This document shows positions 46,147 through 52,854 of a DNA stretch of 64,000 nucleotides, one piece after another. The translations under genes were made by a program, and so were the position numbers. The notes under the pieces are model-generated. The model saw nothing but the letters and a program-made list of their open reading frames with translations. It did no database searches and had not been told where the DNA came from. Source of the DNA: Cystobasidiopsis lactophilus (taxonomy: Eukaryota; Basidiomycota; Agaricostilbomycetes; Agaricostilbales; Chionosphaeraceae); the NCBI GenBank assembly GCA_001599975.1, contig BCIO01000002.1, positions 1,995,883 to 2,059,882 of the forward strand. The letters run 5' to 3'. The number at the start of each line of letters is the position of its first letter. Positions within the stretch are counted from its first letter, which is position 1.

Positions 46147-49100
46147 TTAGACGCCGGTAGCCACTTTTTGCAAGAGAACCAGTAAGCAAGCCTCCAATGG
46201 GCCCGCGTGCAGGGTTCTGCCGGCCTTGTAGCCCATCAATAGGATGTGCTGCGATTTGGTCCCGATCTTCTCCTTGTCCACCGGCAGCTGATCCCGCAAG
46301 GCCCTCGGCCATTTGGAATACTGTCGGTGACAGTTTGAGCAGGGGACGAGCGATCAAATGAGCACGACCACTCACGTATTGCCATAGCTCGGCTTCAGGG
46401 CAGTCCAAGGTGAGGTTCTTGGCCGCGAGTGTGCCGACATCCGCGACCTCTTGGACCCGATTGAGACCCGCCAGGGACAACTCTCCTTCGTTTGCTGCAG
46501 ACCCGATTGCGGTCATCGAGCAGAGGCTGTTGTCGATGCGGACGCACTGCAACCGCCGCAGGACGGCTAGAATGTAGTCGAGGGCGCGCGACAAATCGTG
46601 CGCGAGATCTTGCGGATCGTCCACATAGTAGCTCGGGTTGGTCTGGACGCGCCGCGCCAGGTAGGTGGATGAGAGGAAGGTGAGCAGCGACGAAACCGGA
46701 ACCGACTTCTGCGTGGCGGCGGCGTGCAAGAAGAGGGCTGGCAGCGTGAAATTCGTTTCGTTCGACAGGACTGACTCCAGAAAGAAGCCCTTGGCCCAAA
46801 GTCGGGTGAAGCGGGGCGCTTGAGTTTCGTTGCACAGCACCAGCATATCAGTGCGCGGGATTTGGGCGAATTCGACGATTTCTTTTGGTGAGTAGTGCTG
46901 CAGGACTCTGTTGCCGTCCTGGTCGACCAGAGCTGACGAGCATGTCATGAGGAGCAATGTGTCCGCGCGAATGCCCGTGTCCAGTGCCATCTTGCGGGAA
47001 GTGACCAGCAGCCGAGCACTGCCGGCCTGAAAGCTGCCGAGAAGAGCGCGCTTCACCCGAGATGGCATATGCTCGTGGACAAGCACGAAGCCTTGCTCCA
47101 GGAAGTCCGCAACGTCCGGCAGATCGGCGATGGATTCGGCCGCCCGAAAGATAGCTTGAGGGTCTCGGACGAAGGGCGACGTCAGGCTGAGGTCGGCGCT
47201 CGTCTGTAGAGACCGCATGAAAGAGGCGACGACTTGCTTCAGCTGAAGGTGCGAGGGAAGGACACAGATGCAAGATTGTTCGGGCGCCAGGGCTTTCAGC
47301 AGCGCGAACGCAGGGCCAGAAGCCTTGGCAAGCATGCCCGCAAAAGGCGCCACTATCGTTCTGGCGGAAAGTTGAAGGGGGGCCGCGCGGTCTTGGGGCA
47401 GGAAGTTGTAGACGTGCTCTGGAGGAGCGCGCAAGAATTGGGCGAGCGACGAGCTGTCGTTAAGGGAAAAGCCCAAAGCGATAACTCGCTCCGCCTGTCG
47501 CACCAGTTTGGACAGCGCCAGTTCATACTCCGCGCCCATGGCGTGGATGTCCAGAGCGATCACCACTTGAGGGAGCTTGCCTTTCTGGGCCGGCGGGCTG
47601 ATGCCCGATAGGCGAGACCAGGCTTCGCCTGCCAGAAGGCCCAGTACAGGCGACTGGTGGGAGGGAGGGTGGGACCCTCTTGAAAGCCAGACGACTGGGT
47701 TTTTTGCCAGGTAGAAGGCGGCCGCTTCGCGATAAGCAGAGAGCGACTTCTCGTCTGGCGCCACGATCCACACGCGCTGGTTGTTCTGGATCGCTCGACT
47801 GGAGGGAAAGACACTCAGAAGTAGTTCTGACGGGTCTAAAGGGCTTGCCTCACACGAGAGGAGACAAAGCGACACGGCAGTTGGTGGCTTGGGACGAGGT
47901 GCAGCACAAAACATTGCTGCGCGAGTGAAACATTGAGTGCCAGACTTGCATTGGAATGGTGCTGAGAACATCGTTGAGGTAGCGCTGGGAGAAGAAGGGC
48001 GTGTCGTGCTCCGCAAGCAAATCGCGCTGCTTGAGGAGCGGCAGGCGCAATTGGGCGGTGGCGAGCGGCGGCCGGGGCGGCATGACTGCTGGCAAAGAGA
48101 CGGCCAAGGAATGATCGGATGTCAGCCATTTGTCAAACTCGACGTGCACGAGCAACGAGGTGCCTGCCGGCACACTGGTCTCGAAGATGTGTTCGACTTG
48201 GAGCTGATGGTGGCGGAGCGCCAGCTGGTCCAGACCCAACATTTCACGGTCATCTTCCGTAGACAGCCAAACCCAAAAGGCGACGCTGGGTCCGTGAAGG
48301 GTATCGGCGTGCAGGAAGTTGCGCCGGGCCTGCACCGCGACCTGCACCAAATCGTGCGTAAGCGGTTGCACCCGCGCGGTGACATTGACCGAAGGTATCT
48401 GTCCGGCAGCCTGCTGGACCGACATCGCCAGCTTTTCGTTGGCGCGCAGCAAACTCGCAAGATCGGCAACCTTCATAGCCAGCAGGTCCTCGGTCGAATA
48501 GTCGTCTGCGTACTGCACGACCTTGTACTTGAGGTCTGAGGAAAGCGATGACTGCTTGAGTGGGTGCTCGAACGGCCACATGCGCTCTGGCAAGGTCGCA
48601 TCAGTGCAAATCGAATTGTCGGGGGAGAAAGCCAACCCACTTTCGATGGCTTTGCAGAGTGAAAGCACAACGGCCGCCGTGCTCGACCACCTCTTGCTGG
48701 TAGCCAGTTCAAACAGAGAGCGGCAAATGCGACCCGCGTTCTGGGCCACGTAGCCCTGGTCACTGATCAGGGCAAAGTCCTCCACTGGAAGCATCGAAAT
48801 GTAGGCTTGAAGCAGGAGATTGACCTTGGCAGACGACACTGCCAGTCCACCCTGTCTCTCAAATTCAGCGTGTGGCAGGCAGATGTACGCTGAGGACATC
48901 GGACCTTGATAGCACACGGCACTTTGCGTGCGAGCGCGTCCAACTCTTTGCTCTCCTCTTCGCGTACCGCGACTTGTTCAAACTCTTTGGATCTTGACAG
49001 AACGGCAAGGACGTCTGCTTCCGACATCTGGATTTTGAATTCCGAAGCGAACATTTCGATCGACGCCGCGCGCAGATAGTATTTGGAGGCGATGGTGCCC

Positions 49101-51756
49101 GGATCCAGCGACGACAGAGCACCCGTGGTTTGGTCATAGGAAATCATGCCGAATCGGCTGAGTGTGAGAGCCGCGTTCACGATGAGGCGGTGGCGGGCTT
49201 CTCCCAGGCCTGGATCGCGCATCACGTCGTCCGCTGAGAGGCCATACACCCTGCAACATTGGGACGATTCAGCTTGGAGGGATCAGGAGAGGCCATTCCC
49301 CACTCACATGGGGTTGCGCCGCATTCGCACAAAGAGAAACGTGTAACCGATCCAGCGCACACCTTCGTCGATGGTGCTGACGGTGCCTAATGCTATCTCC
49401 GAGTTGAGAGCATCAAGAATACCGGTCACGAATCTGAAGGTCCGCTGTGAGAAACCAAGACGGCACTCGAAGCAGCCGACACCCACTTTGACTCGATGGG
49501 ATGCTGTTGCGTGATTGCGTTGACGTAGAAGTCGAGCTTGTCCGCAGTCGTGGCGATATATCCAACGCCGTGCGTCTCGTACTGTGGGCGTCCAGCTCTG
49601 CCAAAGATCTGCAGGACGTCAAGAATGGACAGGTCCACGAATGCACCCTTGGATGGGTCGTAGAGCTGGGTGCCCTTGATGACGACAGCATATGCTGGAA
49701 GATTTACGCCCCAGGCCAAAGTCGCGGTGCACACCAGGACCTATGGCTTCTGTTCAGCTCTGGTCAATTATCACTTCGGCCGCAAGGCCTACTTTGGTGA
49801 TGTTGCTCTCGAAAATGCGCTCGCTCAACGTGCGGTCAGATCGTAGCATGCCAGCATGGTGAATTCTGTTGTGGTAAACTGAGCAGAACGTCGCCTGGAA
49901 AAGAAGATGAAAGGTGCGCACCCAAAGCCGAACTGGTAAAGCTCTTTAAGCTCCCGGTTCCGGCTGTTGCCCAAGTCTTTTTTGAACTGGTCGTACTTCG
50001 GGTGCTCCGACGGGTCAAACTCGTCGATGAAGCCATCCAGGGTGGCGCGCTCCTTGAGCATGGTCGCTGTCTTGACCGTCTCTTTGCGCGCGTGCACAAA
50101 GACCATGACCTGGTGGCCGGCTTTGACCAGCTCAACCACTTTGTCGAAGCAAGCTTCGTCCAAGTTGGAGCGACTGGCCGGGCTGCCTGGCTTGCCTTTG
50201 CACCCCAGAAAGTGCTGCTCCAGAGGCACCGGCCGGAAGGAAGCGTCAAAGTAGAACAGGCCCACGTAGCGGTTCACGCCCAGAAAATCGGCAACGTCCA
50301 GATAGTTGGGCAGGGTGGCGCTGAGGCCGACGATGCGGATGAGGGACTGCGAGGACTCGACCTGGCGCAGGGTCCGCGCCACCAGCAGCTCGATCACGGC
50401 GCCCCGCTCGTCGTGCAGCAAATGAACTTCGTCGATGATCAGCAGTTTGACCTTCTGCTCGTTCGTCCTGGTCATTGGTGGCGATATCAAAAGAGCATGC
50501 GAAGGCGCTTACAGAGGCAAGCGAATCGTCAGATCCTGGCTTGTTCGTCACAACAGCCCACTTCTCCGGCGTGGTGACAATCAGATGGGTCTCCGCAATT
50601 TCGCTTCTGGACATTTGCATGTCGCCTGAGCCCTCAAGTCAGTCGTCTGGGTATTGAGCTCAACGGGCAAGCTAGCCACTTACCAGTCAGCTCCCGGACT
50701 TTGACGCCCAGCCACTGCAGTCTCTTGGACATCTTCCGAACCACTTCAGCAGCCAAGGCTTTCATGGGTGCCACGTAGACCATCTTGAAGTCGGCGTTGA
50801 GCAGTTTTGAGTTCTTGATCTGCCCGTATTGTCCAATGGCGCGCAGAATTGTTAGCATGGCCACGTCTGTTTTTCCAGCACCAGTAGGGGCACAGATGAG
50901 CATGTTCTCGTTGGTCTTGTAGCCCACGGGATAAACGATGGACTGCAGCCGGTTGAGCGTGGTGTAGCCCTGTCGAGCAATACTCGAGTTAAAGACCTTC
51001 GGCTTGATCAGGATTAAGAGAGCACGCACAGGAAAGCAGGCTCGCGCAAGCTCGTCGAGCTCCGAGATGGGAAGCAAACGCTCATCGTTGCGCATGGGAA
51101 TCTTGTGCGGCGTTGGGATAGTGATCTCTTCGTATTTCTGGGGGCTTCCTGCGTCAGTATATTTAAAAAAAGCGCTCAAAAGATCCACATTACCTCGGTG
51201 GACTCGCGGGTTGTGCCTTCTGGAAGCGCAAAGCGAGCGCCGAATGCTGCCAAACGCTGGCTGCTTGAAGCAGCGTAGACGTGAGGATATCGGATCTGAT
51301 CAGGATCAGCAGCCTTGAGGTTCAATTTGGCTTAGCTTTGTGTCTTGTCAGGGTCGGAAGGGCGTTGACTCACGGCCAGGCCATCGGTCGCTGAGCGACT
51401 GGCGTTGGCGGCCAATTTAGCCTCCTGCAGCATTTGTAGCTCGGCAAGCGTGCGATGAGCTTTCAGACTTTGTTTGAGCGTGTGTTGTTGCACAAACGGG
51501 CGACCGCCTCACCTTCTGGGGCGCGATGCGAACGGCGAGCTTCTTGCTTGGCCCGCTTCGCCTGCGCTTGCTCCTCGAGCGAGCGAAAGGTGATTTGCGC
51601 TTGCGGGACATAGTGCCTTTCTCTTCGAATGGCGAGGTCTTCAGGCGCCCTTTCGTCCAAGTGTTCGAGCGGCCGCAAAAAATCGAACTCGACGTCGGAG
51701 GCCTCTGCGCCTACCAGGGCCTCGAGGGTGCTCAGAACATCGTCGGTCGGCCTCAT
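46147..51756 (-). CDS. SLH1: Ski2-like RNA helicase SLH1/ASCC3 with a degenerate second cassette
   Basis: This homologue of yeast Slh1 / human ASCC3 resolves collided ribosomes in the RQC-trigger (ASCC) complex. Start ATG 51756. N-terminal exons give [20 protein letters not shown] and [20 protein letters not shown]. Cassette 1 is intact: [20 protein letters not shown] (Walker A), [19 protein letters not shown] (DEVH), [20 protein letters not shown] and [13 protein letters not shown], followed by winged-helix and Sec63 parts. Cassette 2 keeps its length but has lost its motifs: the Walker A position reads [13 protein letters not shown], the DExH position [11 protein letters not shown], the motif VI position EFAQIPRTD. 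The [12 protein letters not shown] anchor survives. The protein ends soon after, [12 protein letters not shown] (stop at 46147), without a second Sec63 module. The frame is open through all exons, so this is not simply a dead gene. An upstream ATG (51879) is in another frame. At about 1,700 residues it is shorter than the yeast protein. Confidence 0.88.
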
Positions 51757-52693: not shown

Positions 52694-52829
52694 GCCTAGC
52701 TAGCTCAAGTAAGCCCGCCTCCACTTCTTTCCCCAGCTACCCGGCTCAAAAACGTCGCAGTCGGTAGAGCGTGAGACTCTTAAACAGTCTGAAATCTCAA
52801 GGTTGTGGGTTCGACCCCCACGTTGGGCT
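52694..52829 (+). tRNA. tRNA-Lys (anticodon CUU) with a canonical intron and a D-loop insertion
   Basis: The 5' acceptor strand GCCTAGC (52694-52700) pairs over all seven positions with GTTGGGC (52822-52828), with two G-U/U-G wobbles. TA follows, then D-stem GCTC (52703-52706) with GAGC (52767-52770). The anticodon stem is TGAGA/TCTCA with loop CT-CTT-A-A (anticodon 52779-52781). The variable loop is five bases, and the T arm GTGGG-TTCGACC-CCCAC contains a good B box. An 11-base intron (52783-52793) lies at the usual place after base 37 and can pair AGTCT with AGACT of the anticodon arm. A second insertion of 52 bases (52709-52760) splits the D-loop and the A box. The discriminator base is T52829. 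An alternative is a damaged gene, but complete pairing of both ends argues for a working one. Confidence 0.78.
52709..52760 (+). other. 52-base insertion in the tRNA D-loop with GT-AG ends
   Basis: The insertion begins GTAAGC, contains a pyrimidine tract (CCTCCACTTCTTTCC) and a CTCAA branch-like motif, and ends GTCGCAG. Its length and signals equal those of the protein-gene introns in this window. Exact removal gives D arm GCTC-AATCGGTA-GAGC, a normal tRNA-Lys D arm. An inner CAG at 52733-52736 would give a 28-base alternative that does not restore the arm. Whether it is removed by the spliceosome, by another route or not at all is unknown. Confidence 0.6.
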
Positions 52830-52847: not shown

Positions 52848-52854
52848 TTTTTTT
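52848..52854 (+). terminator. RNA polymerase III T-run terminator
   Basis: Seven consecutive T residues lie about 20 bases downstream of the tRNA 3' end, as expected for a Pol III terminator. This supports the tRNA gene being transcribed. Confidence 0.65.

Follow-up and report, generated by a model that had tools for sequence, protein, structure and literature searches.

U6 snRNA genes of some basidiomycete yeasts contain mRNA-type introns. An intron of this type also interrupts the U6 gene of Schizosaccharomyces pombe (Tani and Ohshima 1989, 1991, as cited in a passage of PMC10484740). In tRNA genes, ectopic introns of archaea, Cyanidioschyzon merolae and the Guillardia theta nucleomorph occupy many positions, the D-loop included, sometimes with several in one gene, as described in a section of PMC3978253. 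Passages of the tRNAscan-SE 2.0 description treat noncanonical tRNA introns as archaeal, and a 2026 review presents tRNA splicing as a process without the spliceosome (PMC13149111). No report of spliceosomal introns in tRNA genes was found in a search of open-access full texts (PMC8450103, PMC13149111, PMC10484740, PMC11782384, PMC4035089, PMC4494063, PMC12730881, PMC3978253). Here we analyse a tRNA-Lys(CUU) gene that is interrupted in its D-loop, together with the tRNA genes of the same genome.

The gene lies in a window of 64 kb, by which we mean the whole stretch of DNA that was analysed (C2:1995883-2059882 of a 22.1-Mb genome in 8 contigs). Its parts are as follows.

52694..52829, plus strand: tRNA-Lys(CUU) gene, split into three exons by two introns of differing kinds, the only copy found
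52694..52708, plus strand: exon 1, with the 5' acceptor strand, positions 8-9, the 5' D-stem strand and D-loop bases 1-2 (TAGCTCAA)
52694-52700, plus strand: acceptor GCCTAGC
52709..52760, plus strand: D-loop insert of 52 nt with GT-AG ends, GTAAGC at the 5' end and CGCAG at the 3' end; GT...AG is co-optimal by structure alone, and similar inserts occur in 24 other tRNA genes
52745..52749, plus strand: CTCAA, branch-point-like, with its A at 52748, 12 nt from the 3' end of the insert
52761..52782, plus strand: exon 2, with the remaining D arm, the 5' anticodon-stem strand and the anticodon loop to position 37
52779-52781, plus strand: anticodon CTT, inside exon 2
52783..52793, plus strand: canonical 37/38 anticodon-loop intron of 11 nt, AACAGTCTGAA, of the tRNA-endonuclease type
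52794..52829, plus strand: exon 3, with the remaining anticodon arm, variable loop, T arm, 3' acceptor strand and discriminator
52808..52818, plus strand: B box / T-loop GGTTCGACCCC, genome position C2:2048690
52829, plus strand: discriminator T
52848..52854, plus strand: T7 run followed by GG, resembling a Pol III terminator

Removal of 52709-52760 and 52783-52793 leaves a 73-nt tRNA with anticodon CTT, in which 7/7 acceptor pairs and 5/5 T-stem pairs are present and the D and anticodon arms likewise have their stems. The structure and coordinates of the original prediction, a 52-base D-loop insert and an 11-base anticodon-loop intron whose removal allows the stems to form, are hereby borne out. 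Its naming as Lys(CUU) is less clear-cut, since ARAGORN, given the gene with the insert removed, calls a tRNA-Leu(taa) lacking an anticodon intron; three features led us to keep the identity Lys(CTT), namely a single spacer base at position 26, a variable loop of five bases and the match to the Lys(TTT) gene. The latter has an insert at the same D-loop site, and the two insert sequences are unrelated. An intact Lys(CUU) gene elsewhere, which according to the prediction would, together with an absence of junction reads, mark the present gene as a disrupted copy, was looked for and not found: a 23-base piece of the D and anticodon arms, with up to three mismatches allowed, matches the genome once, at the window gene. 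The suggested look at other tRNA genes revealed inserts of the same kind in 24 others, so the window gene is real and such inserts are beyond chance.

A first genome screen with the Rfam tRNA family, in which 63 of 494 candidates were scored, yielded 12 matches, among them a Pro(AGG) gene with a D-loop insert GTAAGT...TTTAG. The main search pattern describes a T-loop, then a T-run and a G (GTTCRANYCN{12,40}TTTTTG), and is independent of the 5' half of the tRNA. Genome-wide it has 64 matches at 63 distinct places, versus 22 for the reversed pattern. All 63 places were inspected: 31 are tRNA T-loops and one lies 30 nt downstream of a tRNA gene, Ala(AGC). The pattern-derived set consists of 32 genes, 24 with inserts and 8 without; four genes were found otherwise, namely Val(AAC) with an insert, and Gly(GCC) twice and initiator Met without. 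The pattern GGTTCRANYCC was covered at 100 of its 107 places. Other T-stem closings are mostly chance occurrences; about 40 of 166 AGTTCRANYCT places were inspected, and 512 TGTTCRANYCR and 366 CGTTCRANYCG places were left out of deliberate inspection. The new rows of two further candidate lists (34 and 65 rows) were covered in part, and the last 40 loci were screened by a stricter T-stem test only. The catalogue of 36 is incomplete, and T-arm inserts are beyond the reach of B-box patterns.

The catalogue comprises 36 tRNA genes, 25 with a total of 26 inserts of 51-76 nt, located in the D arm, the anticodon stem or the variable loop, and 11 without an insert. Inserts are present in Lys (CTT, TTT), Pro (AGG, CGG and TGG, the last with two), Leu (CAA, CAG, TAG, TAA), Arg (TCG, TCT, CCT, ACG), Ser (TGA, GCT, AGA, CGA), Ala (AGC, CGC), Val (CAC, AAC), Phe(GAA), Gln(TTG), His(GTG) and Thr(CGT). 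Genes free of them are Glu(CTC) (two), Gln(CTG), Gly(GCC) (two), Gly(CCC), Gly(TCC), initiator Met, elongator Met, Ile(AAT) and Tyr(GTA). For ten amino acids (Lys, Pro, Leu, Arg, Ser, Ala, Val, His, Phe and Thr) no isoacceptor turned up without an insert, and for many insert-bearing genes the searches yielded no further copy of the isoacceptor. The catalogue, incomplete as it is, lacks a good gene for Asp, Asn, Cys, Trp, Thr(AGT/TGT), Glu(TTC), Ile(TAT), Val(TAC) and Ala(TGC). One sequence resembling tRNA-Asp(GTC) (C5:2907277-2907631, plus strand) has intact D, anticodon and T arms and neither a matching 5' acceptor strand nor a following T-run; it may be a partial copy, or something odder. 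Two inverted pairs were noticed, both without a GT-AG insert: the Gly(GCC) genes, about 0.4 kb apart (C2:1518000-1518700), and the Glu(CTC) genes, 5.3 kb apart (C4:142480 and C4:147819). The Ser(AGA) gene (C3) is preceded by a second copy of its initial 10 bases (GTCACTATGG), 22 nt upstream.

Most inserts are found in the D arm. Those of Val(CAC), Gln(TTG), Arg(CCT) and Arg(ACG) are in the anticodon stem, those of Phe and His beside position 25, and that of Val(AAC) in the variable loop, while the two of Pro(TGG) seem to flank a 6-base exon GTCTAG, set by eye. A natural empty site is provided by Gln(CTG), which aligns closely with Gln(TTG) and reads CAG|ATTCTG where the latter has a 55-nt GTGAGC...CCCAG insert in its anticodon stem. 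Once spliced, 25/25 genes fold, with acceptors of 7/7 pairs in 22, 6/7 in two (one of them beside an N) and 5/7 in one. The last, Thr(CGT) (C1:740701-743711, minus strand), is the sole insert-bearing gene with two acceptor mismatches, which could reflect editing, decay or a wrong exon 1.

Neither ARAGORN in default mode nor Rfam at gathering score finds a tRNA in the 64-kb window. On the unspliced insert-bearing genes ARAGORN names the right anticodon in 0/25 and reports some other hit in 13/25; after removal of the GT...AG insert it names the right anticodon in 20/25 and some tRNA in 25/25. A control in which the excision was shifted by 7 bases still gave the right anticodon in 10/25, hence ARAGORN confirms the inserts and not their exact ends. 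The five deviating names are Leu(taa) for the window gene, Ser(cga) for Arg(TCG), Asn(gtt) for His(GTG), Asp(atc) for Ser(AGA) and Ile(aat) for Leu(TAA). Since ordinary tRNA finders miss or misname such genes, the same habit may hide in other genomes that seem to lack tRNAs.

Insert boundaries were studied with a parser that tries every excision of a single 20-160-nt insert, with or without a 37/38 intron, scores pairing and conserved tRNA bases, and gives no reward to any end sequence. With the ends left free, GT...AG is co-optimal in 17/25 genes and at most 2 points off the best in 21/25; on these two counts an average pair among the 256 possible ones attains 0.55 and 1.58 genes, and the runner-up 6 and 8. 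Another pair is ahead in 8/25 genes. The margin is 1-4 points in seven of them and 21 points in Pro(TGG), a gene that needs two introns and that no single insert can fit. An earlier form of the parser had GT...AG co-optimal in 14/22 genes; the version that gave 17/25 allows variable-loop inserts. When the parser was used for scanning, the best non-tRNA scores were 20 and 17, and insert-bearing genes score at least 28.

For motif counts the ends were set beforehand as GT...AG in all 26 inserts, so that the dinucleotides themselves are not counted as motif evidence. The 5' end has a G at +5 (GTNNG) in 24/26 inserts and the 3' end reads YAG in 23/26; among the 26, the last exon base before GT is 14 times a G and 5 times an A. 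A CTNAH motif whose A lies 12-22 nt before the end of the insert occurs in 22/26 inserts, whereas 5000 shuffles averaged 4.3 and never exceeded 13; this distance window was chosen post hoc, after the data had been seen. With a wider window fixed first (6-45 nt) the count is 24/26, against a shuffled mean of 12.5 and a maximum of 22. The longest word common to two inserts has 13 bases (shuffles: mean 10.4, maximum 16); a family of related inserts was rejected, shared words being no longer than in shuffles, and no common origin is visible. Group I and group II introns are longer than inserts of this size, and self-splicing introns of either group were likewise rejected because the inserts are too short.

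Reference pre-mRNA introns were taken from an SLH1/ASCC3-like helicase gene on the minus strand of the window, at about 46.1-51.3 kb. They were placed by eye and by alignment to solved chains.

50626..50683, minus strand: mRNA intron 1
49866..49921, minus strand: mRNA intron; the reading frame continues across
49741..49792, minus strand: mRNA intron
49434..49486, minus strand: mRNA intron
49251..49307, minus strand: mRNA intron
48852..48904, minus strand: mRNA intron

With the six removed, the helicase protein is in one frame over five junctions; it is open across the first junction too, in another frame, probably since a seventh intron was left in. In this small sample from one gene the introns measure 52-58 nt, with G at +5 in 6/6, YAG in 6/6 and CTNAH in 5/6, the last only weakly above shuffles (mean 2.3, maximum 6). 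The tRNA inserts share their size class, GTNNG, YAG and CTNAH, but are slightly longer (51-76 nt), richer in T (0.33 versus 0.25) and more often contain T-runs. In every sequence test of spliceosomal introns that could be run, the inserts look the part; the inserts, their boundaries, their motifs, the match to the mRNA introns and the proper cloverleaves upon removal can all be read directly from the DNA.

Canonical 37/38 anticodon-loop introns of 7-64 nt were parsed in 31/33 tRNA genes, initiator Met included, and are absent only from Glu(CTC) and Gly(TCC). These transcripts must therefore be acted upon by the tRNA endonuclease, which could also cut the inserts as ectopic introns via a bulge-helix-bulge, as in Cyanidioschyzon merolae and archaea. 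Introns in tRNAs of the Guillardia theta nucleomorph often have no defined motif, and odd-position tRNA introns that are removed through bulge-helix-bulge motifs do exist (in a section of PMC3978253). Here, however, the strict motif with a 4-bp central helix is present in 0/26 inserts (shuffles 2.3%) and the relaxed helix in 5/26 (39% in shuffles), both below the shuffles. The 37/38 introns as positive control gave 2/31 in the strict test, a weak result (shuffles 1.3%), and 16/31 in the relaxed one (29%). As GT...AG ends are seen in 0/31 of the 37/38 introns, the helix tests and end counts together indicate that two kinds of intron differ within the same genes. Cutting of the inserts by the endonuclease would leave GT...AG, the +5 G and CTNAH unexplained, and we regard it as highly improbable. 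The inserts could also disrupt the genes, making them silent copies while intact tRNA genes elsewhere serve the cell: most D-arm inserts split the A box (8-19), T-runs of at least five are present in 10/26 inserts, and 11/36 genes in an incomplete catalogue are insert-free. This is scarcely credible, as translation would stop for those amino acids of which every copy found has an insert, and no second Lys(CTT) gene turned up. The exons moreover keep full pairing, unlike those of decaying copies, and the inserts keep their splice signals. Between the alternatives of the original prediction, processing by the spliceosome or a silent gene, the recurrence of the inserts strongly favours the former, in which splicing itself is what we infer.

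The polymerase is less obvious. Pol III is the first guess because of the B boxes, which are intact, and the downstream T-runs; the original prediction had assumed a Pol III transcript, which has become less certain in view of the T-runs within the inserts. Runs of at least 5, 6 and 7 T are found in 10, 6 and 4 of the 26 inserts, with shuffled means of 3.8, 1.2 and 0.4, and they are as long as the terminator-like runs downstream; five of the runs within inserts are followed by GC, like 27/33 of the downstream ones. Runs of 7 or 8 occur inside the inserts of Leu(TAA), Leu(TAG), Ser(TGA) and Ser(CGA); they might serve regulation, halt Pol III prematurely or point to a different polymerase. A T7 run within an insert should stop transcription if a downstream T5 run does, which leaves three options: read-through by Pol III, the use of another polymerase, or downstream runs that do not act as terminators. 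The inserts could accordingly be spliceosomal introns of Pol II (or long read-through) transcripts from which the tRNA is excised, given that these T7/T8 runs should stop Pol III and that splicing normally goes along with Pol II. Upstream of 34 tRNA genes, moreover, there is no TATAA at -50 to -11 and little shared sequence, with weak preferences only, near -7 to -5. Against Pol II stand the intact B boxes and the T-runs downstream of the genes examined, 27/33 of which are followed by GC, although the search pattern had in part selected for the G. Pol III transcripts can, besides, be spliced, as the mRNA-type intron in fission yeast U6 illustrates (a passage of PMC10484740), and we consider Pol II transcripts rather unlikely.

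The D-loop insert of the window gene is very probably a spliceosomal intron of the U2 (mRNA) type that is removed by the spliceosome, and belongs to a set of at least 26 like it in 25/36 catalogued tRNA genes. This reading is strongly favoured because inserts of the form GT...CTNAH...YAG recur in these 25 genes, many of which are sole copies of their isoacceptor. From the DNA sequence of a single genome we infer that splicing takes place and is performed by the spliceosome, and the same basis underlies any proposal on the polymerase used and the order of steps. The precursor would be transcribed through the insert, after which the spliceosome would recognise GTNNG at the 5' end, a CTNAY-like branch site and YAG at the 3' end. 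The insert would leave as a lariat and the D-arm halves would be joined, while the 37/38 intron of the same precursor would be cut by the tRNA endonuclease and ligated, before or after the spliceosomal step. The preference for the D arm may derive from the universal D-arm sequence, whose ending in ..CAG or ..GAG is similar to the exon part of a 5' splice site; in addition, the lost end of the A box may be replaced by GTNNG, with which the insert begins. With so many tRNA genes containing mRNA-like introns, the cell probably needs its mRNA-splicing machinery to make its tRNAs. Protein synthesis thus likely depends on the spliceosome, in that the only copies found of most isoacceptors appear to hold mRNA-type introns at AG-rich sites, with two unrelated splicing systems cutting one precursor.

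If true, this would add a class of tRNA intron and an essential class of spliceosome substrates to those known, and would tie translation to the spliceosome. Although the splicing of tRNAs and that of pre-mRNAs are taught as unrelated subjects, a single precursor of about 140-200 nt would here undergo both. Two questions would follow: how the spliceosome handles a tRNA transcript that Pol III may have made, and in what way this polymerase deals with divided A boxes and with T-runs within genes. Four U6 matches above cut-off were found in this genome, two at 88.3 bits and two weaker ones of 64 and 48.3 bits that are perhaps divergent copies (C5:1917364, plus strand; C5:1924492, minus strand; C1:672671, plus strand; C1:643015, minus strand). 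An intron of the same kind in U6 was rejected for the one copy of the four that was read, C5:1917364 (plus strand), which is uninterrupted; this counts against the spliceosomal reading, since U6 is the Pol III transcript known to have such introns in other fungi.

As tRNA introns, these inserts are of a kind for which no precedent was found in the open-access literature, and they are very surprising for tRNA biology. The canonical 37/38 introns cut by the Sen endonuclease occur in the same genes, but the inserts lie in the D arm, anticodon stem or variable loop and have splice signals. With ectopic bulge-helix-bulge introns they have in common the many tRNA positions, including the D-loop, and the occasional presence of several in one gene; they differ in having GT...AG ends and a branch motif instead of a bulge-helix-bulge. 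Their nearest relatives are the U6 introns, which are GT-AG spliceosomal introns inside a short, structured RNA, U6 being transcribed by Pol III. Those, however, concern one RNA species, whereas here at least 25 tRNA genes of at least 24 isoacceptors are involved, some of them with an endonuclease intron as well.
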